From: Lepisosteus oculatus
Taxonomy: Eukaryota; Chordata; Actinopteri; Semionotiformes; Lepisosteidae
Reading direction: 5' to 3'
DNA length: 64,000 bases
Assembly (NCBI RefSeq): GCF_040954835.1
Contig: NC_090698.1
Location: 74,630,284 to 74,694,283 of the forward strand
Each line of letters begins with the position of its first letter. Positions within the stretch are counted from its first letter, which is position 1. This document shows positions 2,511 through 63,997 of the stretch, one piece after another. Made by a program: the position numbers and the translations under genes. Under the pieces are notes generated by a model, which was not told the DNA's origin, did no database searches, and saw nothing but the letters and a program-made list of their open reading frames with translations.

Positions 2511-2516
2511 GACTAA

Positions 2517-3335
2517 GACAGAGGGAGGCAGTGTGGGCCAGTGGGTAGAGCCCAGAGAGAGGGAGGCAGTGGGGGCCAGTGGGTAGAGCCCAGAGAGAGG
2601 GGGGCAGTGGGGGCCAGTGGGTAGAGCCCAGAGAGAGGGGGGCAGTGTGGGCCAGTGGGTAGAGCTGAGAGAGGGGGGCAGTGTGGGCCAGTGGGTAGAG
2701 CTGAGAGAGGGAGGCAGTGTGGGCCAGTGGGTAGAGCCCAGAGAGAGGGAGGCAGTGTGGGCCAGTGGGTAGAGCTGAGAGAGGGAGGCAGTGTGGGCCA
2801 GTGGGTAGAGCCCAGAGAGAGGGGGGCAGTGTGGGCCAGTGGGTAGAGCCCAGAGAGAGGGAGGCAGTGGGGGCCAGTGGGTAGAGCCCAGAGAGAGGGG
2901 GGCAGTGGGGGCCAGTGGGTAGAGCCCAGAGAGAGGGGGGCAGTGTGGGCCAGTGGGTAGAGCTGAGAGAGGGGGGCAGTGTGGGCCAGTGGGTAGAGCT
3001 GAGAGAGGGAGGCAGTGTGGGCCAGTGGGTAGAGCCCAGAGAGAGGGAGGCAGTGTGGGCCAGTGGGTAGAGCTGAGAGAGGGAGGCAGTGTGGGCCAGT
3101 GGGTAGAGCTGAGAGAGGGAGGCAGTGTGGGCTAGTGGGTAGAGCTGAGAGAGGGAGGCAGTGTGGGCCAGTGGGTAGAGCCCAGAGAGAGGGAGGCAGT
3201 GTGGGCCAGTAGGTAGAGCTGAGAGAGGGAGGCAGTGTGGGCCAGTGGGTAGAGCCCAGAGAGAGGGAGGCAGTGTGGGCCAGTGGGTAGAACACAGAGA
3301 GAGGGAGGCAGTGTGGGCCAGTGGGTAGAGCAGAC
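2517..3335. repeat. minisatellite, 36/38-bp unit, ~22 copies
   Basis: Head-to-tail copies of a G-rich unit containing gggccagtgggtagag. Two unit types alternate: a 38-bp form with 'cccagagaga' and a 36-bp form with 'ctgagaga'. The order of types in the first half is largely repeated in the second half, which suggests a block duplication. The long open frames through it on both strands come from the stop-free unit. Confidence 0.9.
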
Positions 3336-14279: not shown

Positions 14280-17200
14280 TCAGGCTGTGAGGGGGGTCTC
14301 GGGCGCGAGCCTGATGAGGGAGTTGCTGGCCTGGGCAAGCTCCGCGATGGACACACGCCCGCGCTGCTTGATGAACCGAGCCACTGCCGACAGCTCTGCT
14401 GGCGTGATGTAGATAAACTTCCCTCGGTCATCTATCACCCCTGAGAGAGGGGGAGAGAGCACAGAAATCACATGTGATCCTCGTACCTGCAGCCGGGGCA
14501 GCACAGGTGAGCAGGCACATATTCGAGGACCGCAGTGCACACGCACACCGGAGCCAATACACCTGCTGCTCACAAACAGCCAAGGGATGCAGGATGAAAC
14601 AGCAGCATCAGACTCTTTCTGACATGAGCCTCGCCCTGACTCACCTGTCACTCAGGGCCAGCTGCCATGGAAACACTATGATAGGAAGCCCTCATCACCT
14701 GCAGGCAATTTTCATCGAGGCCTGCATCAGGTGGTGCCAAATATTTGAGGTCTATTGGACAATGCTCAGTGCTCTGGTGTAGAGTCTTCTCTCGAGGTGC
14801 TCTGGTGTCTCACTCATGTTTCTCCCTGGATGCTCGTCCAGAGGCTCGCCCTGACCACGACTTTGCTTGAACCATGCTTGTTTGGCTTTGGATCCTCCCT
14901 GTACTTCGCTACCGTGTTTTTCTGGCTCTGACTGCTGCATTGTTGGACAACAACCCTGGATTGTGAACCTGACTCCCCAGTCTCTCATGCACTGGGCCTG
15001 TCTGTGAGCTCATCACTGCTCAACCTGATTCACCTTAAGAAGCAGGTATATAAAAAAAAAAAAACACCACCAAGAAGAAACAAAGCTTACCTGTTAGAGA
15101 GCCGTCTGCAATAAGGTCCTGTAGCCTGGAGATGGCATCCTAGGCACAGCAGGGGTCAAAGTTCAGTGGCTAACATTCCAACCTGAGCCTCCTCTTTAAT
15201 TTTTCAGTTTCACCCTTCACCCACCCACCATGCCTCTCCTCATCTCACACTGACCTGTGTGCGCATCCCAAAATGAGAGGCCAGGTCTTCCAACAAAACC
15301 ACCTTTGCATTCTGGGAACAGGGAAGAGAGAGGAAGAATGAGAGTGGCCATCACTGATACAGGTGAAAGGACCAGCCCTGAGGCGGACACTGAATGGGCT
15401 GGCACAGGGGGCCCTAGGACTGCGTGGCCAGTGGGGAGAAAAGGCAGAGGAGGGAATGGTGGTCACTAGGGGAGAAGGAGATCCTGCTGTTTAGAGTCGA
15501 GGACAGAGGACAGGCTCACCTTGATGTACTCGATAAACTCCTGCAGCAGGCTATGAGTCTGAAAGCAGAAAATAAACAGTGAGAAATGAGCATATCTGTC
15601 AGGCCCTGCTCCTCCACGGTGAAGGTCTCAGTCAGTCGGTACCTCCTGCTCAGTGAGCGTATCTGTCAGGCCCTGCTCCTCCACGGTGAAGGTCTCCTTC
15701 AGCTTCAGGTACTCCTCATGTTCCCGACGCTCCTGTTCCTCCCGCGTTCGCTGCTCCTCCTCCGCCTGAAACCATGGCAACAGTCAGCAGAGTGTCAGAG
15801 CCGCTGCGCCCAGCAGAGCGTCAGTGCTAGATCACGAGCACGGGGGTGTCGGGGCGTCAGGGTGTCGGCAGCACCTTCCTCTGCTCCTCCAGTCTCTCTC
15901 TCTCCTCCTCCCTCCTCCTCTCTTCCTCTCTCAGCTGCTGGGTTCGTTTCCGCTCCTCCCGGTCCTCCAGTTCAGCCTGAAACACCAGACAGCCGGTCAG
16001 CAGCGCCCACCCCGGATGCCACAGTGCGACAAGACAGCAACCGAAGCAGGACAGTGAGGCTGGAAAGGGAGGCCTCGCCCAGTGGAGGCCGAGCGTCTTG
16101 GGTCAGCCTGCTGCAGGTCCTTACGTCTGCTGCTGGAGAGCAGAGCCCCACTGGGCCCCCAGGTGAGCCGACAGGAGTGCCCACCGTCTGTATGGGACTG
16201 CACCATCAAGTCCCGCGTGTCAGAATGTACACACCTCAATCACTTAAAATCACATGCAGTGATTTCATCAGCTTGTTCATTTAAAATGAACAAATACCAC
16301 ACAAGGCCTGTTTGCTGCCTTGTTGCTCACTTCATACTGCACTTCTAGAGAAAGACTTGAGCTGCTGAATGTCCATCCATCCGTTCCTTACGGATTCTCC
16401 CAATTCTGGGCCGCAGGGGAGCCGGAGCCTATCCTAGCAAGCATCAGGTGCAAGGCAGGACACCCTGGATTGCAATTTCCCTCACGGGATCAATAAAGTA
16501 TCTATCTATCTATTGATCGCTAGTTCACTGCAGGACAGACAGACACACTCACTCCATGGCCAACTCCCAGGAGCGACGAGCTCGGAAGATCAGGAAACAA
16601 AGGAGAAAGGGGACCGGAGAGCCTCTCACCTCTCTCTGCGCTCTCCTGGCCTGCTTCTCCTCCAGCTTCCTCTGCTTCTTCGCCCCCACCTTCTCCGCAC
16701 CCAGGAGCTGAGGATGCTCCTCCAGGTCCTGCTCCTCCCCGTTGCTGTCCTCTGGGAGATCAGAGACACCCAGCTCAGCTCTCTACTCCTGGATCTGCCC
16801 CAGCGTTTCCACAGACACGCAGCTCAGCTCTCTACTCCTGGAGCTGCCCCAGCGTTTCCACAGACACCCAGCTCAGCTCTCTACTCCTGGAGCTGCCCCA
16901 GCGTTTCCACAGACACCCAGCTCAGCTCTCTACTCCTGGAGCTGCCCCAGCGTTTCCACAGACACCCAGCTCAGCTCTCTATTCCTGGAGCTGCCCCAGC
17001 GTTTCCACAGACACGCAGCTCAGTTCTCTACTCCTGGAGCTGCCCCAGCGTTTCCACAGACACCCAGCTCAGCTCTCTACTCCTGGAGCTGCCCCAGCGT
17101 TTCCACAGACACCCAGCTCAGCTCTCTACTCCTGGAGCTGCCCCAGCGTTTCCACAGACACCCAGCTCAGCTCTCTACTCCTGGAGCTGCCCCAGCGTTT

Positions 17201-19706
17201 CCACAGACACCCAGCTCAGCTCTCTATTCCTGGAGTTGCCCCAGCGTTTCCACAGACACCCAGCTCAGCTCTCTACTCCTGGAGCTGCCCCAGCGTTTCC
17301 ACAGACACCCAGCTCAGCTCTCTACTCCTGGATCTGCCCCAGCGTTTCCACAGACACGCAGCTCAGCTCTCTACTCCTGGAGCTGCCCCAGCGTTTCCAC
17401 AGACACCCAGCTCAGCTCTCTACTCCTGGATCTGCCCCAGCGTTTCCACAGACACGCAGCTCAGCTCTCTACTCCTGGAGCTGCCCCAGCGTTTCCACAG
17501 ACACGCAGCTCAGCTCTCTACTCCTGGAGCTGCCCCAGCGTTTCCACAGACACGCAGCTCAGCTCTCTACTCCTGGAGCTGCCCCAGCGTTTCCACAGAC
17601 ACGCAGCTCAGTTCTCTACTCCTGGATCTGTCCCAGCATTTCCACCACTGACATTAATTATTCCATTACACACAGTGTAATTACAGTCCACACAGGACAC
17701 AGTATGCACTGTACAACAGATACACACAGGACAGAACCAACAGGACAGATGCACACTGAACAATACACACAGGACAGGTGCACACTGTACACACGGGACA
17801 GGTGCACACTGTACACACGGGACAGGTGCACACTGTACACACGGGACAGGTGCACACTGTACACTCGGGACAGGTGCACAGGGGGTGTCGTACCCAGGTC
17901 AGGCGCGTCTCGCTGAGCACGCCGCTGTGCTGTCACTCGGGCGTTGAGGTTCCTGCGGCGGCGAGGCATTCCTGCAGGGCGGTCTTCCGCCACAGGGGGG
18001 CGAGCTCGAGCCTGCACATCCTGCCTGTGATCCCTGTCCGCTGGGAGAGAGAAATTCAGATTTCGACAGCGTCTCCCTCACAGAAGACACGCAGCATCAG
18101 TCCGCTGTCCCAGCAGCGCCGACAGTTTGGGGACAAGCCCGCCCCTCCATCACCAGGCAGAGTTTAGAGATCAGAGCTTCCCCTGGCCCCAGCCTCGGCC
18201 AGCTCCTGCTCCAGCTGACTCACGAAGCCCCGGGTTCACTCACCACTCCTCTCCGAGGTGTTCTCAGTTCGGAAGCTTTCAATTTACCTACAAACAGTCT
18301 GAGGAAACGTCAAACCGTAAAGTCCAATTAGTCGAGTCCAGCAGTCCTGCCCAGCTCTTTATAAAGCTGTGTGACAGTGCAGTCCACCTCCAGACCCGCA
18401 GGCTTCACTAGGCTCTTGAAAGCACTGACAGCAGGGGTTCTGACCCGATCAGTGGTGCCGTCTCTGAGACACACTGGGACACTGAGCAGCAGGGGTGAGA
18501 CTGGTCTGGTTCTGACCCGATCAGTGGTGCCGTCTCTGAGACACATTGGGACACAGTACACCAGGGGTGAGACTGGTTTGGTTCTGACCCGATCAGTGGT
18601 GCCGTCTCTGAGACACACTGGGACACTGAGCAGCAGGGGTGAGACTGGTCTGGTTCTGACCCGATCAGTGGTGCCGTCTCTGAGACACATTGGGACACAG
18701 TACACCAGGGGTGAGACTGGTCTGGTTCTGACCCGATCAGTGGTGCTGTCTCTGAGACACATTGGGACACAGTACACCAGGGGTGAGACTGGTCTGGTTC
18801 TGACCCGATCAGTGGTGCTGTCCCTGAGACACACTGGGACACTGAGCAGCAGGGGTGAGACTGGTCTGGTTCTGACCCGATCAGTGGTGCCATCTCTGAG
18901 ACACATTGGGACACAGTACACCAGGGGTGAGACTGGTTTGGTTCTGACCCGATCAGTGGTGCCGTCTCTGAGACACATTGGGACACAGTACACCAGGGGT
19001 GAGACTGGTCTGGTTCTGACCCGATCAGTGGTGCTGTCTCTGAGACACATTGGGACACAGTACACCAGGGGTGAGACTGGTCTGGTTCTGACCCGATCAG
19101 TGGTGCTGTCCCTGAGACACACTGGGACACTGAGCAGCAGGGGTGAGACTGGTCTGGTTCTGACCCGATCAGTGGTGCCGTCTCTGAGACACACTGGGAC
19201 ACTGAGCAGCAGGGGTGAGACTGGTCTGGTTCTGACCCGATCAGTTCTGCTCTCTGAGAGACAGTACACCAGGGGTGAGACTGGTCTGGTTCTGACCCGA
19301 TCAGTTCTGCTCTCTGAGAGACAGTACACCAGGGGTGAGACTGGTCTGGTTCTGACCCGATCAGTTCTGCTCTCTGAGAGACAGTACACCAGGGGTGAGA
19401 CTGGTCCGGCGAGAGACCAATACACCTCCTTCAACCTCCTGCAGGGGTGACCGTCACTCCCGGAGCGCTTTCCAGACACGCACCGACGTCTCTTCCGAAA
19501 GAAGCCGTGAAATTCCTGGATCTCTCTGTCTGCTCTCTGACAGTCCAGCCGAGTCCCGCCCCCGGGGCAGAGCGCTCCCCCCGTCCCCCAGCTCCCCTGG
19601 CCCCGCCGCAGAGCTCACCCTGCTCCGCCTGGCCGCGCACTTTCACGGCGAACACGATCAGCACGGCGAGGATGGCCGCCGCGACGGCGTACAGCACCGC
19701 GTCCAT
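14280..19706 (-). CDS. ddrgk1: DDRGK domain-containing protein 1 (UFBP1)
   Basis: Nine coding exons on the minus strand: 19706-19619, 18040-17894, 16751-16630, 15976-15875, 15765-15643, 15558-15520, 15311-15255, 15139-15091 and 14440-14280. They total 888 nt, 295 aa (human 314). An N-terminal membrane anchor is at about residues 2-22, followed by an Arg-rich segment and a long charged Glu/Arg coiled coil (about 85-190). The C-terminal winged-helix/PCI-like region carries the name-giving DDRGK at 246-250 and the signature [17 protein letters not shown]. The family protein is an ER-anchored adaptor that, with UFL1, directs UFM1 conjugation, and acts in ER-phagy and ribosome quality control. I chose the start MDAVLYAV, not an in-frame ATG 13 codons upstream, so that the anchor lies at the N-terminus. 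Introns 1-3 hold large minisatellites. Confidence 0.95.
15588..15630 (-). repeat. intronic duplicate of ddrgk1 exon 5 end
   Basis: Nearly identical to 15655-15697, offset 67 bp. The copy carries codons from the 3' part of exon 5 (for example cctccacggtgaaggtctc on the plus strand) and lies just beyond that exon's splice donor, inside intron 5. If read through the donor, the frame stops before the copy, so it should not add protein. Confidence 0.85.
16366..16505. mobile_element. dispersed fish repeat fragment (LINE-associated)
   Basis: Contains gccggagcctatcctagcaa and an 'aaggcaggacaccctgga' element, the hallmark of a very common fish interspersed repeat. It ends in (tatc)n at 16499-16513. 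It lies in ddrgk1 intron 3. The family assignment is from memory of the motif. Confidence 0.55.
16763..17645. repeat. 49-bp minisatellite, ~18 copies
   Basis: Units share gctgccccagcgtttccaca and ctcagctctctactcctgga, with sites alternating cacccag and cacgcag. The array begins about 12 bases beyond the ddrgk1 exon 3 acceptor (minus strand), inside intron 2. The plus-strand frames of 312-467 codons are artefacts. Confidence 0.95.
17700..17890. repeat. 24-bp minisatellite
   Basis: Copies of acacgggacaggtgcacact adjoining the ddrgk1 exon 2 donor. About five units are near-perfect, with a more diverged left side. Confidence 0.85.
18434..19405. repeat. 72-bp minisatellite, ~13 units
   Basis: Units contain tctgacccgatcagtggtg and aggggtgagactggt. 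About ten 72-bp copies are followed by three 60-bp copies with an internal deletion (gatcagttctgctctctgag). Within the 72-bp copies, two middle variants alternate (gacactgagcagcagg and gacacagtacaccagg). The array fills ddrgk1 intron 1 and is open on both strands. Confidence 0.95.
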
Positions 19707-27558: not shown

Positions 27559-31720
<4,162 letters not shown>

Positions 31721-40847: not shown

Positions 40848-43445
40848 CACAGGCGGTGCTGTTCCCTCTGCAACTTCAGAAAGGGCTGCCTTCCAACACA
40901 GCAGCCCTCTCGAAACCCACAAGCCCCTCCGGGATCGCTGTTCTCTCGGGTCGCTCTCCTCTTCGTCTGCTGCTTCAGCTTCTCCAGCCCAGCTGGCTGC
41001 CCTTTAACCAGCTTCTTCTCCGCGCTTGTTTCAGGATCGCTGACTCAGCTGGCTCAATAACAAACAGCCTTCAACCCGCTGCTGTAAATCTTCAAAACAC
41101 AGCTGTGGGCTTTATACCGCGTCCCTGTCACCTCGATCGCTCTGGCCGCATTCCGTTCCACAGCACATTCTCTCTCTCTGCCTGGCCCATGCTGGGTCTG
41201 CTGTTCGCTACCGGAGGAGACGAGTGGGGGATTCCTGAACCCTGTACCGCTCTTGACCGACAGCCTGGCTCCCACTGGGACGTATCCGACCCTCTCTGGC
41301 TCTGGCTAATTAGAACAGAGTCCACTCGGCCAATTTACAGCTTGATAACAGAGTAATAATCAGTTACCCTAGGAACCTCCTACAGACACTGACAGCCCAG
41401 AATTCTGTCCTTATAATCGTGGAAAAACAACTCTAAAATTGTAATAAAAAAATCCTGGGACCTGAACCAGGCCTAAATCACACTCTCACAAAGTACCAGC
41501 ACAGATTCTGCTTTTAAGTCTGAATTCAGAGAGGCGCTATCTCAGGGCACCAGCTTTGTGATGAGGAGGAGGGAGGATAAAGAGTTAAAAGCAAGGGTCC
41601 AGTTCTGTTGGGGCAATCTGACTGACCAGGGCACTGTGGGGTATTCATGTTTCCTCACGGGTCATCGTTTCAGTCTGCCGCCACATCTCCCTGCTGACCC
41701 TCTCGCCCGCCTGTCGCCCGCCTCTCCCCAGCCTCACGCAGCACGTCTGCCACACCTGCTTCGCCCGCCAGCCCAAGCTCCAGCGCTGCGGGCAGTGCAA
41801 GTTCGCCCACTACTGCGACCGCACCTGCCAGCGGGAGGGCTGGGCCGAGCACAAGGGCGAGTGCAGCGCCATCAAGAAGTACGGCCAGACGCCCAACGAG
41901 AACATCCGGTGAGCCCAGGGGTACAGTGTGTGTGTGTGGTGAGCCCAGGGGTACAGTGTGTGTGTGTGGTGAGCCCAGGGGTACAGTGTGTGCGTGTGTG
42001 GTGAGCCCAGGGTACAGTGTGTGTGTGGTGAGCCCAGGGGTACAGTGTGTGTGTGTCCGGTGAGCCCAGGGTACAGTGTGTGTGTGGTGAGCCCAGGGTA
42101 CAGTGTGTGTGTGGTGAGCCCAGGGGTACAGTGTGTGTGTGGTGAGCCCAGGGTACAGTGTGTGTGTGTGGTGAGCCCAGGGTACAGTGTGTGTGTGTGG
42201 TGAGCCCAGGGGTACAGTGTGTGTGTGTCCGGTGAGCCCAGGGTACAGTGTGTGTGTGGTGAGCCCAGGGGTACAGTGTGTGTGTGGTGAGCCCAGGGGT
42301 ACAGTGTGTGTGTGGTGAGCCCAGGGGTACAGTGTGTGTGTGTGGTGAGCCCAGGGGTACAGTGTGTGTGTGGTGAGCCCAGGGGTACAGTGTGTGTGTG
42401 TGTGCGTGGTGAGCCCAGGGGTACAGTGTGTGTGTGTGGTGAGCCCAGGGTACAGTGTGTGTGTGTGTGGTGAGCCCAGGGGTACAGTGTGTGTGTGGTG
42501 AGCCCAGGGGTACAGTGTGTGTGTGTGGTGAGCCCAGGGTACAGTGTGTGTGTGTGGTGAGCCCAGGGGTACAGTGTGTGTGTGTGGTGAGCCCAGGGGT
42601 ACAGTGTGTGTGTGGTGAGCCCAGGGGTACAGTGTGTGTGTGTGGTGAGCCCAGGGTACAGTGTGTGTGTGTGGTGAGCCCAGGGGTACAGTGTGTGTGT
42701 GTGGTGAGCCCAGGGGTACAGTGTGTGTGTGTGGTGAGCCCAGGGGTACAGTGTGTGTGCGTGGTGAGCCCAGGGGTACAGTGTGTGTGTGTGGTGAGCC
42801 CAGGGGTACAGTGTGTGTGTGTGGTGAGCCCAGGGGTACAGTGTGTGTGTGTGTGTGTGTGTGTGGTGAGCCCAGGGGTACAGTGTGTGTGTGTGGTGAG
42901 CCCAGGGGTACAGTGTGTGTGTGTCCGGTGAGCCCAGGGTACAGTGTGTGTGTGGTGAGCCCAGGGGTACAGTGTGTGTGTGGTGAGCCCAGGGGTACAG
43001 TGTGTGTGTGTGGTGAGCCCAGGGGTACAGTGTGTGTGTGGTGAGCCCAGGGGTACAGTGTGTGTGTGTGTGCGTGGTGAGCCCAGGGGTACAGTGTGTG
43101 TGTGTGGTGAGCCCAGGGTACAGTGTGTGTGTGTGTGGTGAGCCCAGGGGTACAGTGTGTGTGTGGTGAGCCCAGGGTACAGTGTGTGTGTGTGGTGAGC
43201 CCAGGGGTACAGTGTGTGTGTGTGGTGAGCCCAGGGGTACAGTGTGTGTGTGTGGTGAGCCCAGGGTACAGTGTGTGTGTGTGGTGAGCCCAGGGGTACA
43301 GTGTGTGTGTGTGGTGAGCCCAGGGGTACAGTGTGTGTGTGTGGTGAGCCCAGGGGTACAGTGTGTGTGCGTGGTGAGCCCAGGGGTACAGTGTGTGTGT
43401 GTGGTGAGCCCAGGGTACAGTATGTGTGTGGTGAGCCCAGGGGTA

Positions 43446-43476
<31 letters not shown>

Positions 43477-46400
43477 GTGAGCCCAGGGTACAGTGTGTGT
43501 GTGTGGTGAGCCCAGGGGTACAGTGTGTGTGTGTGGTGAGCCCAGGGGTACAGTGTGTGTGTGTGGTGAGCCCAGGGGTACAGTGTGTGTGTGGTGAGCC
43601 CAGGGTACAGTGTGTGTGTGTGTGGTGAGCCCAGGGTACAGTATGTGTGTGTGGTGAGCCCAGGGTACAGTGTGTGTGTGGTGAGCCCAGGGGTACAGTG
43701 TGTGTGTGTGGTGAGCCCAGGGTACAGTGTGTGTGTGTGGTGAGCCCAGGGGTACAGTGTGTGTGTCCGGTGAGCCCATGGGTACAGTGTGTGTGTGTGG
43801 TGAGCCCAGGGGTACAGTGTGTGTGTGTGGTGAGCCCAGGGGTACAGTGTGTGTGTGTGGTGAGCCCAGGGGTACAGTGTGTGTGTGGTGAGCCCAGGGT
43901 ACAGTGTGTGTGTGTGGTGAGCCCAGGGGTACAGTGTGTGTGTGGTGAGCCCAGGGGTACAGTGTGTGTGTGGTGAGCCCAGGGGTACAGTGTGTGTGTG
44001 GTGAGCCCAGGGTACAGTGTGTGTGTGTGGTGAGCCCAGGGGTACAGTGTGTGTGTGGTGAGCCCAGGGGTACAGTGTGTGTGTGGTGAGGCCAGGGGTA
44101 CAGTGTGTGTGTCCAGTCAGCCCAGGGGTACTGTGTGTGGTGAGCTCAGACAAGGGGTACAGTGTGTGTGTCCGGTGAGCCCAGGGGTACAGTGTGTGTC
44201 CGGTGAGCTCAGACGAGGGGTTCAGTGGGTGTGTCCGGTGAGCCAGACGAGGGGTACAGTGTGTGGTGATCTGAGATGAGGGGTACAGTGTGTGTGTGTG
44301 GTGATCTGAGATGAGGGGTACAGTGTGTGTGTCTGGTGAACTGAGAAGTGGGGTACAGAGTTTGTAACAAAGAAAACCTGTGAAAAATGGCAGAGCTCTT
44401 TTGAAGTAGCGTGTGTCCTCGCTCCTCTTTTCTAAGCCTTTCTCTCTGGCTCTCTGTCCACCTGTCTGTCTGTGCCAGGCTGGCAGCGAGGGTGCTGTGG
44501 CGCATCGAGCGAGAGGGCAGCTCTCAGGCCGAGGGCAGCCTGACCTCCCTGGACGAGCTGGAGGACCATGTGGCCGACATGCCTGAGGAAGACAGGAAGG
44601 AACTGAAAATCGATGTCCACAACTTCCTGGACTACTGGCCGCCCCACAGCCGCCAGTTTGGAGTGGAGTACATCTCACACATCTTCGGCGTTGTGCGTCA
44701 CTCTCTCTCTCTCACTCTCCTCCTGCCTTCCTCTCATTCTGCTCAACAAGCTTATGGCATGACCAGTGGATGACAGTGTTGCCAAGACAGGAGATCACAT
44801 GCTGTATTATTATTATTGAGAGACAGGCTCACTGTTCCTGGTAACTCCTCAGAGCTGTGTCATATTAAAATGAGTTTCTTTGACAGATGTTTGATGCTAC
44901 AGTATATTGTCTGATTGCATACCTTTGCACATCAAGCAGGGACAGATGTTCCTACAGCAGGCTGTATTTGCACACTTGAGAGACTAGTGAGTGCCATTGT
45001 GAAACACTAGGTCTCTGTAATTTCTCGCACTGAAGTCTCGCTGTACACCAGGCTGGCTGACAATCCAAACTGTGTTCTCGTTGGCAGATTAACTGTAACG
45101 GATTCACGGTCAGTGACCAGCGTGGGCTGCAGGCAGTGGGCGTTGGACTGTTTCCCAACTTGTGTCTGGTCAACCATGATTGCTGGCCCAACTGCTCTGT
45201 TATTCTCAACAATGGCAAGTGAGTACAGAGATACACTGGACACTGCAGCACCATACAGACACACTAGACACTACAGCACAATACAGACACACTAGACACT
45301 ACAATATCTTACAGACAGACTGGACAATAGCACTCCACAGACACACTGGACATTACAGCACCCTACAGACACACTAGACACTACAGCACAATACAGACAC
45401 ACTGGACACTACAATATCTTACAGAGGCACTGGACACTACAGCACTGTACAGACACACTGGACACTACAGGACCCTACAGACACACTGGACACTACAATA
45501 TCTTACAGAGGCACTGGACACTACAGCACTGTACAGACACACTGGACACTACAGGACCCTACAGACACACTGGACACTACAGCACAGACAGACACACTGG
45601 ACACTACAGTATGTTACAGAGGCACTGGACACTGTAGTATCTTACAAAGACAATGCCTGATGAGTCCTTTATGGATGTTACTACATGCTCCTATGCTGTA
45701 TTTACTGCACTTTGCCCTGATCTCTTTCAGCGTTGCTGGATTGGGCTGTGCTGCTGTCTGCTCTGCTTTTACAGTGCAGAGCAGTAAATCTCACTCACAA
45801 ACTCACAGGAATTTTGTAACAAAACCATTTTCCACTCTGTGTGAAGCTTAAGAACAGCTACAGACAAGAGGAATCCACTCGGTCCACCCAGCCTTTTAAA
45901 TAGTTATAAATAGCTAATTGATCCCAGGATTTCATCTGGCATTTCTTGACAGAAGCCAGAGTTCGGGCTCCAATCACATGGCTGGGCAGCCTGTTACTGA
46001 TTCCCGGCACCCCCACACTCCCGGGAGAGCTCCCTGTCACCCCAGGAGACGTGAGGGGTTAGTGCCCCACTGAGCAGTGACGCAGGGTCGGAGGGGGTGA
46101 AAGAGCTGGGAATCTGGGGTACAGCAGTCTGGGAAGGGATGGAGAGGCTGAAGGGAATAGCTGCTCTCTGAGCGAGGAGGAAGCCTCTGGCTCCTTCAGA
46201 GTTTGTGCACTTTCAGAGTTTGTGTCACACGACTGCACTTTCAGTGTGAGCAGCCTGCCCAGGTTTCCAAGTGACTTTTACTCTTATTTAGTTTAGAACA
46301 GGCAAAGTCTGAGTGTGTGTGTGACAGCTCAGGGACTGGGGACACTGCCTAGACAGATACCTTGTTGTGTAAACATTCTCATTTTGTTTTTCAGTCATGC

Positions 46401-58238: not shown

Positions 58239-61200
58239 ATGCGCTACTGCAGCACGCGTGGAGCTGTGAGGGGGCGGGGCTTCGAGGACGTGCTGTTCTC
58301 TGGCTTCGCGGAGGACGGGGGCATGTTCATGCCTGAGGAGCTGCCCTCTGTGCCCCCTGCCACGCTGCGCCTCTGGAGCGCCCTGTCCTACCCCCAGCTG
58401 GTGGAGGAGGTCTGTGCCCTCTTCATCCCCCCAGAGGTCATTCCCCGAGAGGAGCTGAATGGTGAGACTGGCAGGGCTGCTCTCAGTGTCTCTGCCTGCA
58501 GGGCTCAGGGCTGCTCTCAGTGCCTGCAGGGCTCAGGGCTGCTCTCAGTGTCTCTGCCTGCAGGGCTCAGGGCTGCTCTCAGTGTCTCTGCCTGCAGGGC
58601 TCAGGGCTGCTCTCAGTGTCTCTGCCTGCAGGGCTCAGGGCTGCTCTCAGTGCCTGCAGGGCTCAGGGCTGCTCTCAGTGTCTCTGTCTGCGGGGCTCAG
58701 GGCTGCTCTCAGTGTCTCTGCCTGCCTGTATGTGTCCTTGACTCCTGGTTCTGTGTTGGCAGCCCTGCTGTCTCGGGCGCTCAGGGGGTTCTCTGTGCCT
58801 GAAGCAGTGCGGATGGTGAGGCTGCAGGATGGGCTGGCAGTCCTGGAGCTGTGGCACGGTGCCACCCTGGCCTTCAAGGACCTGGCCATGAGCTGCACAG
58901 CGCAGCTGATTGGACACTTCCTCAAGAGGCAGAAGAGACACGTCACTATCCTCGTGGGTAAGAGACAGGCCTGGTCTGCTTTTCAGTCTGTGTGCACCTG
59001 GAGCTCTATCTGCCTGTAAATTCAATTCAAGAACTGGACTGGTAAATTTCAGTGTTGCTAAGCATATACAGTCAATACATCATCTACAGACATTAGACAA
59101 CACATAGCTATTGAGAGACAGGCTCAGTCTGTTCCTCAGGCTGGGACAGGAGATCACACACTGTATTATTATTATTGAGAGACAGGCTCACTGTCTGTTC
59201 CTCAGGCTGGGACAGGAGATCACACTCTGTATTATTATTATTGAGAGACGGGCTCACTGTCTGTTCCTCAGGCTGGGACAGGAGATCACACACTGTATTA
59301 TTATTATTGAGAGACAGGCTCACTGTCTGTTCCTCAGGCTGGGACAGGAGATCACACACTGTATTATTATTATTGAGAGACAGGCTCACTGTCTGTTCCT
59401 CAGGCTGGGACAGGAGATCACACACTGTATTATTATTATTGAGGGACAGGCTTACTGTCTGTTCCTCAGGCTGGGACAGGAGATCACACACTGTATTATT
59501 ATTATTGAGAGACAGGCTCACTGTCTGTTCCTCAGGCTGGGACAGGAGATCACACACTGTATTATTATTATTGAGAGACAGGCTCACTGTCTGTTCCTCA
59601 GGCTGGGACAGGAGATCACACACTGTATTATTATTATTGAGAGACAGGCTCACTGTCTGTTCCTCAGGCTGTGACAGGAGATCACACACTGTATTATTAT
59701 TATCGAGAGACATGCTCACTGTCTGTTCCTCAGGCTGTGACAGGAGATCACACGCTGTATTATTGATACATATATACTGTATGCACAGATGATATCATGC
59801 TAAGCTCCCATCCTGGGTGACCTGGAGGCGACCATTGATAAATGTTAGTTTCTTTGTGGTCAGAGAGCCCAAACTTACTTCCTCTTTCTCTCACACAGAT
59901 GTCTGACACCTTATCTTAATTTAGCATATGTGTGAAGACAAGGCAGTCTTTTGCAAAAACAGCTTAAGTATACTTCTGCTAATGCTTATTTGATTTTATT
60001 AAAGCATTATTAAGCATATTATTTTGCAAATTGATAGATACATTTCCGTTCATTCAATATCTCTCTGTCTGTCTGTATCCCTCTCAGTATCTCTCTGAAG
60101 CTCTGTCCCTCTGTCCCTTTGTATTCAATTCAATTCAAGATGCTTTACTGGCATGACCAATTAATTGATCAGTGTTTCCAAAGCATATACAATTAGCATA
60201 AAATCTAGGCACAATCCTAATACATTTACAGACAAACATACAGTATGGAGCATTATTGGGAGACAGACTCACTGGGTTGTGAAAGGAGATCACATACTGG
60301 GCTGCCAGTTCAACTGAGTTTCCTCCTCCCTCTCCCAGTAGGATTGGGAGCTGTTGTGATTCTGGCAGGTGTGGGAATTCTGAGATTTGTAAGATTTGTA
60401 AATTCTAGATTTGTAAATTTGGGGAAGAAAGTCTAATCCCAGAATATGTGTCACAGTGCAGTAGAAAGTGCACCTCTGTCTCTGTTTCTTCCTGTTGGCA
60501 GTGGGAGCACACCATCCAGAGAATCAATGCCGAGATCTCACGGTGCTGCGCCCTGCTCCCAAACGTCTACCTGGCCCATCACTCCACCCTTGGACCACAG
60601 CATCTACACGACCATAAACACCTCAAAAAACAGACCATTGGACTCTTCACAAAAACTCTGAAAGACACCACACCTCCAGAGAGCACTGACCCCACTGCTC
60701 CTGTCTCCTCCTCCACAGAGCACTGACCCCACTGCTCCTGTCTCCTCCTCCTCCAGAGAGCACTGACCCCACTGCTCCTGTCTCCTCCTCCTCCACAGAG
60801 CACTGACCCCACTGCTCCTGTCTCCTCCTCCTCCACAGAGCACTGACCCCACTGCTCCTGTCTCCTCCTCCAGAGAGCACTGACCCCACTGCTCCTGTCT
60901 CCTCCTCCTCCAGAGAGCACTGACCCCACTGCTCCTGTCTCCTCCTCCACAGAGCACTGACCCCACTGCTCCTGTCTCCTCCTCCTCCAGAGAGCACTGA
61001 CCCCACTGCTCCTGTCTCCTCCTCCTCCAGAGAGCACTGACCCCACTGCTCCTGTCTCCTCCTCCTCCAGAGAGCACTGACCCCACTGCTCCTGTCTCCT
61101 CCTCCTCCAGAGAGCACTGACCCCACTGCTCCTGTCTCCTCCTCCTCCAGAGAGCACTGACCCCACTGCTCCTGTCTCCTCCTCCTCCAGAGAGCACTGA

Positions 61201-63997
61201 CCCCACTGCTCCTGTCTCCTCCTCCTCCAGAGAGCAGTGACCCCACTGCTCCTGTCTCCTCCTCCTCCACAGAGCACTGACCCCACTGCTCCTGTCTCCT
61301 CCTCCTCCAGAGAGCACTGACCCCACTGCTCCTGTCTCCTCCTCCACAGAGCACTGACCCCACTGCTCCTGTCTCCTCCTCCTCCTCCAGAGAGCACTGA
61401 CCCCACTGCTCCTGTCTCCTCCTCCTCCAGAGAGCACTGACCCCACTGCTCCTGTCTCCTCCTCCTCCAGAGAGCACTGACCCCACTGCTCCTGTCTCCT
61501 CCTCCTCCAGAGAGCACTGACCCCACTGCTCCTGTCTCCTCCTCCTCCAGAGAGCACTGACCCCACTGCTCCTGTCTCCTCCTCCTCCTCCACAGAGCAC
61601 TGACCCCACTGCTCCTGTCTCCTCCTCCTCCAGAGAGCACTGACCCCACTGCTCCCGTCTCCTCCTCCTCCACAGAGCACTGACCCCACTGCTCCCGTCT
61701 CCTCCTCCTCCAGAGAGCACTGACCCCACTGCTCCTGTCTCCTCCTCCTCCAGAGAGCACTGACCCCACTGCTCCTGTCTCCTCCTCCTCCACAGAGCAC
61801 TGACCCCACTGCTCCTGTCTCCTCCTCCACAGAGCACTGACCCCACTGCTCCTGTCTCCTCCTCCTCCAGAGAGCACTGACCCCACTGCTCCTGTCTCCT
61901 CCTCCTCCACAGAGCACTGACCCCACTGCTCCTGTCTCCTCCTCCTCCAGAGAGCACTGACCCCACTGCTCCTGTCTCCTCCTCCTCCACAGAGCACTGA
62001 CCCCACTGCTCCTGTCTCCTCCTCCTCCAGAAAGCACTGACCCCACTGCTCCTGTCTCCTCCTCCTCCAGAAAGCACTGACCCCACTGCTCCTGTCTCCT
62101 CCTCCTCCAGAGAGCACTGACCCCACTGCTCCTGTCTCCTCCTCCTCCACAGAGCACTGACCCCACTGCTCCTGTCTCCTCCTCCACAGAGCACTGACCC
62201 CACTGCTCCTGTCTCCTCCTCCTCCAGAGAGCACTGACCCCACTGCTCCTGTCTCCTCCTCCTCCACAGAGCACTGACCCCACTGATCCTGTCTCCTCCT
62301 CCTCCACAGAGCACTGACCCCACTGCTCCTGTCTCCTCCTCCTCCAGAGAGCACTGACCCCACTGCTCCTGTCTCCTCCTCCTCCACAGAGCACTGACCC
62401 CACTGCTCCTGTCTCCTCCTCCACAGAGCACTGACCCCACTGCTCCTGTCTCCTCCTCCACAGAGCACTGACCCCACTGCTCCTGTCTCCTCCTCCTCCA
62501 GAGAGCACTGACCCCACTGCTCCTGTCTCCTCCTCCTCCAGAGAGCACTGACCCCACTGCTCCTGTCTCCTCCTCCTCCAGAGAGCACCGACCCCACTGC
62601 TCCTGTCTCCTCCTCCTCCAGAGAGCACCGACCCCACTGCTCCTGTCTCCTCCTCCTCCAGAGAGCACTGACCCCACTGCTCCTGTCTCCTCCTCCTCCA
62701 GAGAGCACTGACCCCACTGCTCCTGTCTCCTCCTCCTCCAGAGAGCACTGACCCCACTGCTCCTGTCTCCTCCTCCTCCAGAGAGCACTGACCCCACTGC
62801 TCCTGTCTCCTCCTCCAGAGAGCACTGACCCCACTGCTTCACCCACAGGGACCTCTGGGGACACGGGCAGCTCTGCCATCCACAGTGTACGCGGACTGGA
62901 GGGCATCGACATTGTGGTAGTTTTTCCCAGTGGGCGCTGTACTGCTGTTCAGGAGAGACAGATGACCACTGTGCTGGAGGACAACGTGCATGTCTTTGCA
63001 GGTCAGAACACACAGCTCACAGGGTGGATACTGGCCACTGATCAGACAGTCTGTCACTGGATAGATACACTCAGGCCACTGGGAGGTCACTGGGCAGATA
63101 CACTCAGCCCACTGGGAGGTCACTGGGCAGATACACTCAGGCCACTGGACGGGCACTGGGCAGATACACTCAGCCCACTGGGTCACTGGGCAGATACACT
63201 CAGCCCACTGGGTCACTGGGCAGTTATACTCAGGCCACTGGACGGACACTGGGCAGATACACTCAGCCCACTGGGAGGTCACTGGGCAGATACACTCAGG
63301 CCACTGGATGGACACTGGGCAGATACACTCAGCCCACTGGGAGGTCACTGGGCAGATACACTCAGGCCACTGGATGGACACTGGGCAGATACACTCAGGC
63401 CACTGGGAGGTCACTGGGCAGATACACTCAGGCCACTGGGAGGTCACTGGGCAGATACACTCAGGCCACTGGACGGGCACTGGGCAGATACACTCAGGCC
63501 ACTGGACGGACACTGGGCAGATACACTCAGCCCACTGGAAGGTCACTGGGCAGATACACTCAGGCCACTGGAAGGTCACTGGGCAGATACACTCAGGCCA
63601 CTGGGAGGTCACTGGGCAGATACACTCAGCCCACTGGGAGGTCACTGGGCAGATACACTCAGGCCACTGGACGGGCACTGGGCAGATACGCAGCCACAGC
63701 ACATGGTCATACTGCAGCACCCTCGGGTGGAGCTGTCCCGGCAGACTGACAGCGCCTCGTCTCTCCCAGCGGAGGGCAGCTGTGACGACATTGATGTGAT
63801 CACCCGGCGCCTCTTCGCCGACAGCCGGTTCGTGAAGCGCCACAGCCTGATGAGTCTGAACTCGGTGAACTGGGCGCGCGTCCTGGTGCAGACGGCACAC
63901 TTCTTCTACGCCTACCTGCAGTGCTGCCCGCTCGACGCCACGCCCCTGCCACTCCTCGAGGTGGTCGTGCCCACCGGGGGGGCCGGCAACATCGCAG
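58239..63997 (+). CDS. thnsl2: threonine synthase-like 2, 5' part
   Basis: Four coding exons, 58239-58461, 58763-58957, 62849-63001 and 63770-63997, every intron phase 1, give the first 266 residues. A donor (gcag then gta) at the window edge shows that it continues; human THNSL2 is about 484 aa. The N-terminus [23 protein letters not shown] is typical. The PLP-binding lysine is K113 in AFKD, as in human. The phosphate-binding-type loop [10 protein letters not shown] and VVPTGGAGN follow. The family is a PLP fold-type II enzyme descended from bacterial threonine synthase. In mammals it acts as a phospho-lyase on O-phosphohomoserine and O-phosphothreonine, and a secreted form (SOFAT) has been described. 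The start sits just after an acceptor. Confidence 0.96.
58470..58735 (+). repeat. ~33-bp minisatellite filling a thnsl2 intron
   Basis: About eight units of ggctcagggctgctctcagt followed by gtctctgcctgcag or a shortened gcctgcag. Each unit therefore contains a pyrimidine tract ending in CAG, just 5' of the true acceptor at 58762. Confidence 0.92.
59018..59108 (-). mobile_element. inverted LINE tail
   Basis: attcaattcaagaactggac, gtgttgctaagcatatacag and atctacagacatt are the reverse complement of the LINE tail. It directly adjoins the 66-bp array. Confidence 0.75.
59109..59775 (-). repeat. 66-bp minisatellite derived from the LINE 3' end
   Basis: Ten units of tattgagagacaggctcact, gtctgttcctcaggctggga and caggagatcacacactgtat, the exact reverse complement of the spr intron 2 array. 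Divergence increases towards the right end. It lies in the 3.9-kb thnsl2 intron. Confidence 0.97.
60125..60480 (-). mobile_element. inverted LINE 3' end
   Basis: Tail attcaattcaagatgcttt, gcatgaccaattaattgatc, then ggagatcacatactgggctg, ctcccagtaggattgggagc and gtgtcacagtgcagtagaaag. This is the reverse of the LINE C-terminus at 28150-28350. Confidence 0.8.
60495..60665 (+). mobile_element. possible retroelement ORF1 remnant
   Basis: A plus-strand translation [20 protein letters not shown] and [20 protein letters not shown] resembles a conserved region found in fish LINE ORF1 esterase-like domains. Assigned from memory, so only tentative. Confidence 0.35.
60665..62838 (+). repeat. 40-bp minisatellite, ~55 copies
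   Basis: Units of gagcactgaccccactgctc plus a ctcc-rich tract ending ccag or ccacag. Lengths are 34-43 bp, depending on the number of tcc triplets and on 'agagagc' versus 'acagagc'. It ends 10 bases before the authentic thnsl2 exon acceptor at 62848. The minus strand lacks stops in all three frames, giving spurious 717-788-codon frames. Confidence 0.97.
63035..63690 (+). repeat. ~33-bp minisatellite, ~20 copies
   Basis: Units of cactgggcagatacactcag with 'cccactgggaggt', 'gccactggacggg' or shorter linkers. It fills the intron between thnsl2 exons ending 63001 and starting 63770. Confidence 0.95.

Follow-up and report, generated by a model that had tools for sequence, protein, structure and literature searches.

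A donor-headed minisatellite in smyd1 intron 2 of Lepisosteus oculatus and the recurrence of splice-site arrays within one genome

Can a splice junction found a minisatellite, and how is an intron spliced when it is filled with copies of its own donor? These questions are raised by intron 2 of smyd1 in Lepisosteus oculatus, which lies in a stretch of 64,000 nucleotides (nt), here called the window (C3:74630284-74694283 of 75,406,407; contig NC_090698.1), of an assembly that was searched over its 1.2 Gb and 813 contigs. A preliminary description of the window had pointed to an array of about 80 tandem splice donors beginning exactly at the exon 2 donor of this gene. The array is indeed there, with 81 GGTGA units, the real donor included, running from 41908 to 44335. 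We consider it likely that the array was founded by tandem duplication of a segment of the junction, that it grew internally and under near-neutrality, and that the first donor is the one used.

The identity of the gene as smyd1 is certain. Spliced with the first donor, it yields one open frame of 486 amino acids (aa), which aligns over its whole length to mouse SmyD1 (3N71, residues 1-486, E 1.9e-256). Exons were placed using human protein queries, with boundaries fixed by eye at GT/AG sites, and the exon 2 stretch finds a single match in the assembly. A search against Pfam gave a family for only one of the ten open reading frames tried in the window and none for the other nine. Exon 2 closes with ...AAC ATC CG, preceded by ...AACATCCG, and intron 2 (41909-44478) opens with GTGAGCCCAGGGG.

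From this junction onwards, the array takes up 96% of the intron and ends 113 nt short of the acceptor (Table 1). The spacing of its GGTGA motifs is 27-54 nt, mostly 27-32, and GTGAG is kept in 78 of the 81 units; Tandem Repeats Finder (TRF) describes the array by one row at 41908-44304 (30 bp, 80.2 copies) and an older 35-bp row at 44132-44365. Unit 1, which holds the real donor, belongs to the commonest unit type (24/81), and the real donor, together with the bases that follow it, is identical to the commonest 30-nt unit. The mean pairwise core distance, on the other hand, reaches 6.81 edits among units 73-81, whereas the remaining eight groups of nine units show 0.22-1.11. Since unit 1 is of the commonest type and the most diverged units sit at the far 3' end, the 5' edge of the array has probably been homogenised, and this combination of a uniform 5' end with a diverged 3' tail is the one-sided homogenisation, or polarity, of classical GC-rich subtelomeric minisatellites. 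Blocks have been duplicated within the array as well, because units 11-48 realign to units 34-65 with a score that exceeds all 200 shuffles. The unit is specific to this locus: among 66 genome-wide matches with at most two mismatches, 54 fall in the smyd1 array, 11 in an array on C21 and one on C27. This search did not support an origin of the smyd1 unit from a dispersed repeat. The C21 array has a 39-bp unit, and no adjoining exon was seen by eye. The 291 nt at the start of the smyd1 array fold no better than shuffled sequence (z 0.16), and inverted repeats of at least 12 nt were not found within it.

How closely the 80 downstream units resemble a working donor was scored with a literature-based donor matrix. 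The score of the real donor, CCGGTGAGC, is 8.59, while 69 decoys read GTGGTGAGC (7.79), seven carry the real 9-mer, one scores 8.11 and three are weak (4.04, 4.04 and 5.26); 77 of the 80 thus come within 1 bit of the real site. In the duplex with the 5' end of U1, the real site has an energy of -8.3 and the most frequent decoy one of -8.1. Because both scores and energies are near equal, the real donor is hardly distinguished by sequence from its copies, and the earlier picture of one true donor followed by near-equal decoys holds. The surroundings of these sites differ, in that a TG tract 8 nt or longer stands directly upstream of 74 of the 80 decoys and none within 30 nt upstream of the real donor.

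The reading frame sets what such decoys can do. Intron 2 splits an arginine codon after its second base, and read-through from CG into G TGA creates an in-frame stop at 41910-41912, inside the donor itself. In the spliced model, the protein would stop at 100 aa with one unit retained and at 147 aa without exon 3, while joint loss of exons 3 and 4 would preserve the frame and give 371 aa. Stepwise intron retention of about 30 nt at a time, which had been put forward as one possibility, is not supported as a useful outcome: since all 80 decoys lead to the same TGA at 41910, use of a decoy can only reduce the amount of SMYD1 and adds no peptide in 30-nt steps.

What, then, speaks for the junction as the founder? 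Some units do regain exon-side bases, as first described, though the match extends only 4 nt (TCCG) into the exon and is found in the seven decoys with the real 9-mer. Exon-side CC before GGTGA is found in 3/7 units of the tail versus 4/73 of the body (Fisher P 0.013, with the boundary set by eye), and a degenerate unit near 44113 also carries it. Because CC is enriched in the diverged tail, the ancestral unit was plausibly CCGGTGAG..., matching the exon end; the tail CC, a matter of few bases, is the only direct indication that a junction founded the smyd1 array.

Next door, the evidence is direct. Intron 6 of thnsl2 (L022:7044-7259 in a flanking stretch, equivalent to 67044-67259 and outside the window) contains an array of eight donors, with units of 24-29 nt, headed by the exon 6 donor. 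The exon 6 tail and donor, ACACACTGCACAGAGAG followed by GTCAG, occur exactly four times, the real one included, and 17 exon nt are present in three of the seven downstream units. Since these 17 coding bases recur inside intronic units, the thnsl2 array is the clean case of founding by a junction, and junction founding in smyd1 is supported because it is visible so close by. Stepwise isoforms are possible at thnsl2 intron 6, since four of its seven decoys (27, 54, 159 and 186 nt on) would extend the protein in frame to 507, 516, 551 and 560 aa against 498 in the model; the other three shift the frame. The initial claim that a splice site founded the smyd1 array is kept in part: the array most likely began with the amplification of a segment that held the junction, but the case is not unusually clean, given an exon match of TCCG only and a 5' edge that has probably been homogenised.

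The placement of arrays relative to splice sites was compared with random placement of each array inside its own intron, over 25 introns (12 of them array-bearing) of five genes in the window. TRF gave 115 rows, from which overlaps were merged, short or low-score rows dropped and 28 arrays kept by hand (32 in an extended test); the dropped rows include two that touch splice junctions, one at the acceptor of smyd1 exon 2 (41699-41739) and one at the donor of ddrgk1 exon 5 (15598-15696), and keeping these would have raised the edge count. Distance thresholds were chosen after looking, and the introns of a minus-strand gene at ~7.8-11 kb were left out of all counts. On this basis, six array edges lie within 15 nt of a splice site where 2.09 are expected (P 0.003), with P values of 0.033, 0.014, 0.035 and 0.012 at 10, 20, 30 and 40 nt; the acceptor side alone shows no enrichment of edges (P 0.28 or more). 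With four more thnsl2 introns added (29 introns, 15 with arrays), seven edges fall within 15 nt against 3.49 expected (P 0.018), and P is 0.41, 0.057, 0.017, 0.061 and 0.031 at 5, 10, 20, 30 and 40 nt. The excess in this larger set is on the donor side (five within 15 nt, P 0.011; range 0.011 to 0.14), the acceptor side never going below 0.38. Arrays in this region tend to lie near donors. Donor-likeness was dropped as evidence by itself; sites resembling a donor or acceptor also recur unit by unit on antisense strands and in arrays outside the mapped genes.

Further arrays at splice sites are found in the same genome. Intron 2 of thnsl2 holds the mirror image of the smyd1 case, an array of acceptor-like modules. 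The last of these continues into the real acceptor (62847-62848; the edge by TRF is 62838) and contains the branch-point-like motif of that acceptor, and CTGAC occurs 52 times in all, the last one beside that acceptor. The literature searches made here turned up no description of an array built of numerous complete acceptor modules, an absence that holds for these searches only. The diverged tail of the smyd1 array has one other match among the best-scored candidates genome-wide, at C11:29410423-29410930 (69-71% identity), inside an intron of a KDM3B-like gene whose exons match KDM3B (4C8D, E 8.8e-49). This intron carries 29 decoy donors whose scores equal or exceed that of the real donor (7.34). 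The likeness of its unit to the smyd1 unit may reflect either shared descent or the copying in both of a donor, a G-run and a TG tract. Moreover, the 84-nt intron 5 of ddrgk1 (region 15559-15765, minus strand) includes a 43-nt copy, 97.7% identical, of the exon 5 tail, beginning 13 nt after the donor, a young junction duplication. It is this recurrence of splice-site arrays within one genome that is new here.

Table 1. Features of the smyd1 array and of related arrays; positions refer to the window unless another sequence is named.
Feature	Position	Strand	Remarks
smyd1 exon 2 (MYND finger)	41732..41908	+	zf-MYND profile match E 1.4e-11; intron after codon position 2
smyd1 true 5' splice site GTGAGC	41909..41914	+	9-mer CCGGTGAGC; TGA 41910-41912 in frame upon donor skipping
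smyd1 intron 2 minisatellite	41908..44365	+	81 GGTGA units, of which 80 are decoy donors; most are 27-32 nt long and read GGTGAGCCCAGGG(G)TACAG(TG)n
Run of units realigning with 42895-43858 (internal block duplication)	42199..43342	+	25/29 aligned units identical; realignment score 34, highest value in 200 shuffles 29
Diverged 3' tail of smyd1 array	44085..44365	+	several ~35-nt units, e.g. CCGGTGAGCTCAGACGAGGGGTTCAG
smyd1 exon 3, 214 nt	44479..44692	+	acceptor AG at 44477-44478
smyd1 intron 4 array	45229..45633	+	starts 10 nt after donor by TRF
ddrgk1 intron 2, two arrays covering 87%	16764..17880	-	gaps of 13 nt to donor and 12 nt to acceptor
thnsl2 intron 1 array	58472..58725	+	10 nt after donor, 37 nt before acceptor; acceptor-like sites in ~half of units
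thnsl2 intron 2 mirror array	60673..62848	+	~54 units, most of them 37-40 nt, with CTGAC resembling a branch point, a pyrimidine tract and AG
KDM3B-like intron array	L038:815-1548 (C11)	-	734-nt array of 32-bp units in a 771-nt intron (95%); 10 nt after donor, 27 nt before acceptor

The chromosomal setting is one in which minisatellites abound. The locus lies 0.71 Mb from the end of C3, and minisatellites make up 30% of the window. Across 20 samples of 10 kb, taken on this contig only and judged by our own cut-offs, minisatellite cover is zero in 11/11 between 12 and 73 Mb and 6-26% in six of the nine nearer the ends. Because the end samples and the window are rich and the interior samples empty, the smyd1 array belongs to a GC-rich repeat zone at the chromosome end; tandem units of 10-100 bp with enrichment towards the ends, the mark of classical subtelomeric minisatellites, are what C3 shows. 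Introns with donor-like arrays are not confined to such zones, since the KDM3B-like case sits at 29.4 of 42.3 Mb on C11.

The layout itself is not new, and human ABCA7, CBS and IFI6 offer precedents. The splice-donor minisatellite of human IFI6 (6-16) was reportedly described by Turri et al. in 1995, and its unit is short, at 12 nt. Two downstream repeat units of IFI6 serve as donors (PMC4526556) and give further mRNA species, unlike their smyd1 equivalents, all of which would be truncated. Intron 18 of human ABCA7 carries a 25-bp variable number tandem repeat (VNTR) directly after exon 18, the first two bases of which are the donor GT; alleles range from about 12 to 427 units, with 23.7 in the reference, and are associated with disease, and retention of one unit, at 2 +/- 1% in the tissues measured whatever the VNTR length, causes a frameshift to a stop (PMC5954066). 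ABCA7 thus resembles smyd1 in an array that runs from the donor GT onwards and in the stop that follows one-unit retention, but it has measured splicing effects and an allele range, whereas smyd1 stands at 81 units in one assembly, known from sequence alone. As in donor-headed intronic VNTRs generally, the smyd1 array starts at a real junction with the donor in unit 1, and its downstream units are donor-like. The stop codon built into the donor and the (TG)n spacer are smyd1's own features, and its unit of about 30 bp differs from that of ABCA7.

The human CBS gene contains a 31-bp VNTR, c.1444_1467+7(16_21), which by its name comprises 24 exon and 7 intron bases and thus 16-21 copies of a donor junction, and its 844_845ins68 allele is a two-copy junction duplication (PMC2630376). 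This VNTR is closest to the thnsl2 intron 6 array; its unit is mostly exonic, whereas smyd1 units have only about four exon-side bases. Human segmental duplications have yielded 27 intron modifications through variable tandem repeats on exon-intron boundaries, with altered splicing (PMC2812944); unlike smyd1, these concern coding-repeat variation between paralogues and, in the part of that report drawn on, are not presented as intron-filling donor arrays. Splice sites likewise lie in tandem inside a repeat in UBC (PMC10809524), where each is a dual donor and acceptor within a coding repeat, whereas the smyd1 units are donor-like only and non-coding. As far as the parts of the reports used here go, intronic minisatellites of C. 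elegans (PMC4039745) and tandem repeats of Nothobranchius (PMC2688266) have no bearing on mechanism.

How might the smyd1 array have arisen, and how would it be spliced? On the reading we favour, a short stretch at the border between exon 2 and intron 2 would have been duplicated in tandem, and the array would have grown by internal unequal exchange or slippage, block duplications included, in a minisatellite-rich zone near the chromosome end. Splicing would fall to the first donor, recognised jointly with exon 2, and the downstream donors, near-equal as matches to U1, would yet be rarely used. Any use of a decoy would meet the immediate TGA and probably lead to nonsense-mediated decay; selection against this built-in stop would remove alleles in which decoys win, so that the first donor is kept. 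The net effect would be near neutral, with the possibility that, as in ABCA7, splicing becomes less efficient or the following exon is skipped as the array lengthens. Several points weigh against this account. The exon-side match in smyd1 spans just 4 nt and, unit 1 being the commonest type, the array may have overwritten the present donor-side sequence. The zero gap between array and donor is weak evidence alone: within 5 nt of a splice site, one array edge is observed in the 25 introns where 0.79 are expected (P 0.57), and a start at the donor is not surprising by itself because the array fills nearly the whole intron. The genome search returned no smyd1 paralogue as an in-genome outgroup, the next match being on C14 at 31% identity. 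Where equal donors are duplicated, the intron-proximal site is often preferred in vitro. Use of downstream units in human IFI6 argues against automatic dominance of a first donor (PMC4526556), and skipping of ABCA7 exon 19, at 12-45% by tissue and rising with array length (PMC5954066), speaks against near-neutrality. The 5-nt result and the 96% cover also suit an ordinary minisatellite that arose inside the intron and was grown or homogenised up to the donor, the GTGAG in its unit being incidental. The place of the most diverged units at the 3' end fits this course, as do the splice-like sites on antisense strands and in arrays outside mapped genes, and the arrays without a strong splice site per unit in ddrgk1 intron 2 and smyd1 introns 4, 6 and 8. 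We nevertheless hold an intronic birth to be unlikely, if still worth serious attention, in view of the exact identity of the real donor and its following bases with the commonest 30-nt unit, the exon-side CC of the tail, and the junction founding seen at the same locus in thnsl2 intron 6.

Other accounts extend or qualify the reading of a junction founder with a dominant first donor. More broadly, splice junctions might be recurrent founders of minisatellites in this genome, as donors (smyd1 intron 2, thnsl2 intron 6 and probably the KDM3B-like intron) and as an acceptor (thnsl2 intron 2), each amplified into an array that reaches the exon, with (UG)n tracts silencing the decoys of donor arrays and the outermost site being spliced; taken as a whole, this we regard as doubtful. 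Self-silencing on its own terms would mean that each decoy brings a UG tract coated by TDP-43 or CELF-type proteins, decoy and silencer having been amplified together. The TG tracts upstream of most decoys, with none in the 30 nt preceding the real donor, are consistent with this, and in mouse muscle TDP-43 keeps cryptic exons repressed where UG repeats flank them (PMC5289002); the UG tracts beside silent sites in such TDP-43-silenced regions have a counterpart at 74/80 smyd1 decoys. However, a TG tract also lies about 20 nt after the real donor, and the tracts may merely belong to a slippage-prone founder, so that self-silencing appears improbable. We give a similarly low rating to a length-dependent brake, by which longer arrays would cut correct smyd1 splicing or cause exon 3 skipping and so make a muscle methyltransferase vary heritably. 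The longer the VNTR of ABCA7, the more often its exon 19 is skipped (p = 3.24e-13) and the lower its expression (PMC5954066). In smyd1, exon 3 skipping or one-unit retention would cut the protein to 147 or 100 aa; the array length comes from a single assembly. Finally, the copy number could be an artefact of assembly, a collapsed or stuttered repeat: such arrays are hard to assemble, and the block duplication pattern might be read in this way. The many unit variants in non-trivial order, the diverged tail, the complete surrounding gene and the single genomic match of exon 2 make this very improbable.

Introns of this kind could be regarded as natural competition assays, in which one real donor faces about 80 near-identical ones or, in thnsl2, some 54 acceptor-like modules precede the real acceptor. 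RNA from such introns would reveal the weight of position and exon context at equal site strength, and whether UG tracts silence the decoys. The arrays are also non-human relatives of the disease-linked ABCA7 VNTR, and they hint that junctions in minisatellite-rich zones can found repeats. What makes these arrays of interest is that they recur and that they set up a natural competition experiment, more than any single array.

Other repeats were observed around these genes. One 66-bp unit forms an array in spr intron 2 and, inverted, another in thnsl2 intron 2 (30437-31280 and 59109-59764), and single copies or fragments of it lie at 44786-44835, 30357-30409 and 28318-28354; it is a dispersed seed, perhaps carried by a transposon. 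Two arrays that are far apart, at 2516-3331 and L022:4325-4913, share a similar 38-bp unit (AGAGAGAGGGAGGCAGTGTGGGCCAGTGGGTAGAGCCC and AGAGGGAGGCAGTGTGGGCCAGTGGGTAGAGCCCAGAG). Downstream of thnsl2, at L022:9036-9724, a further array contains the acceptor-like CTTTCCCCCAG in its unit.

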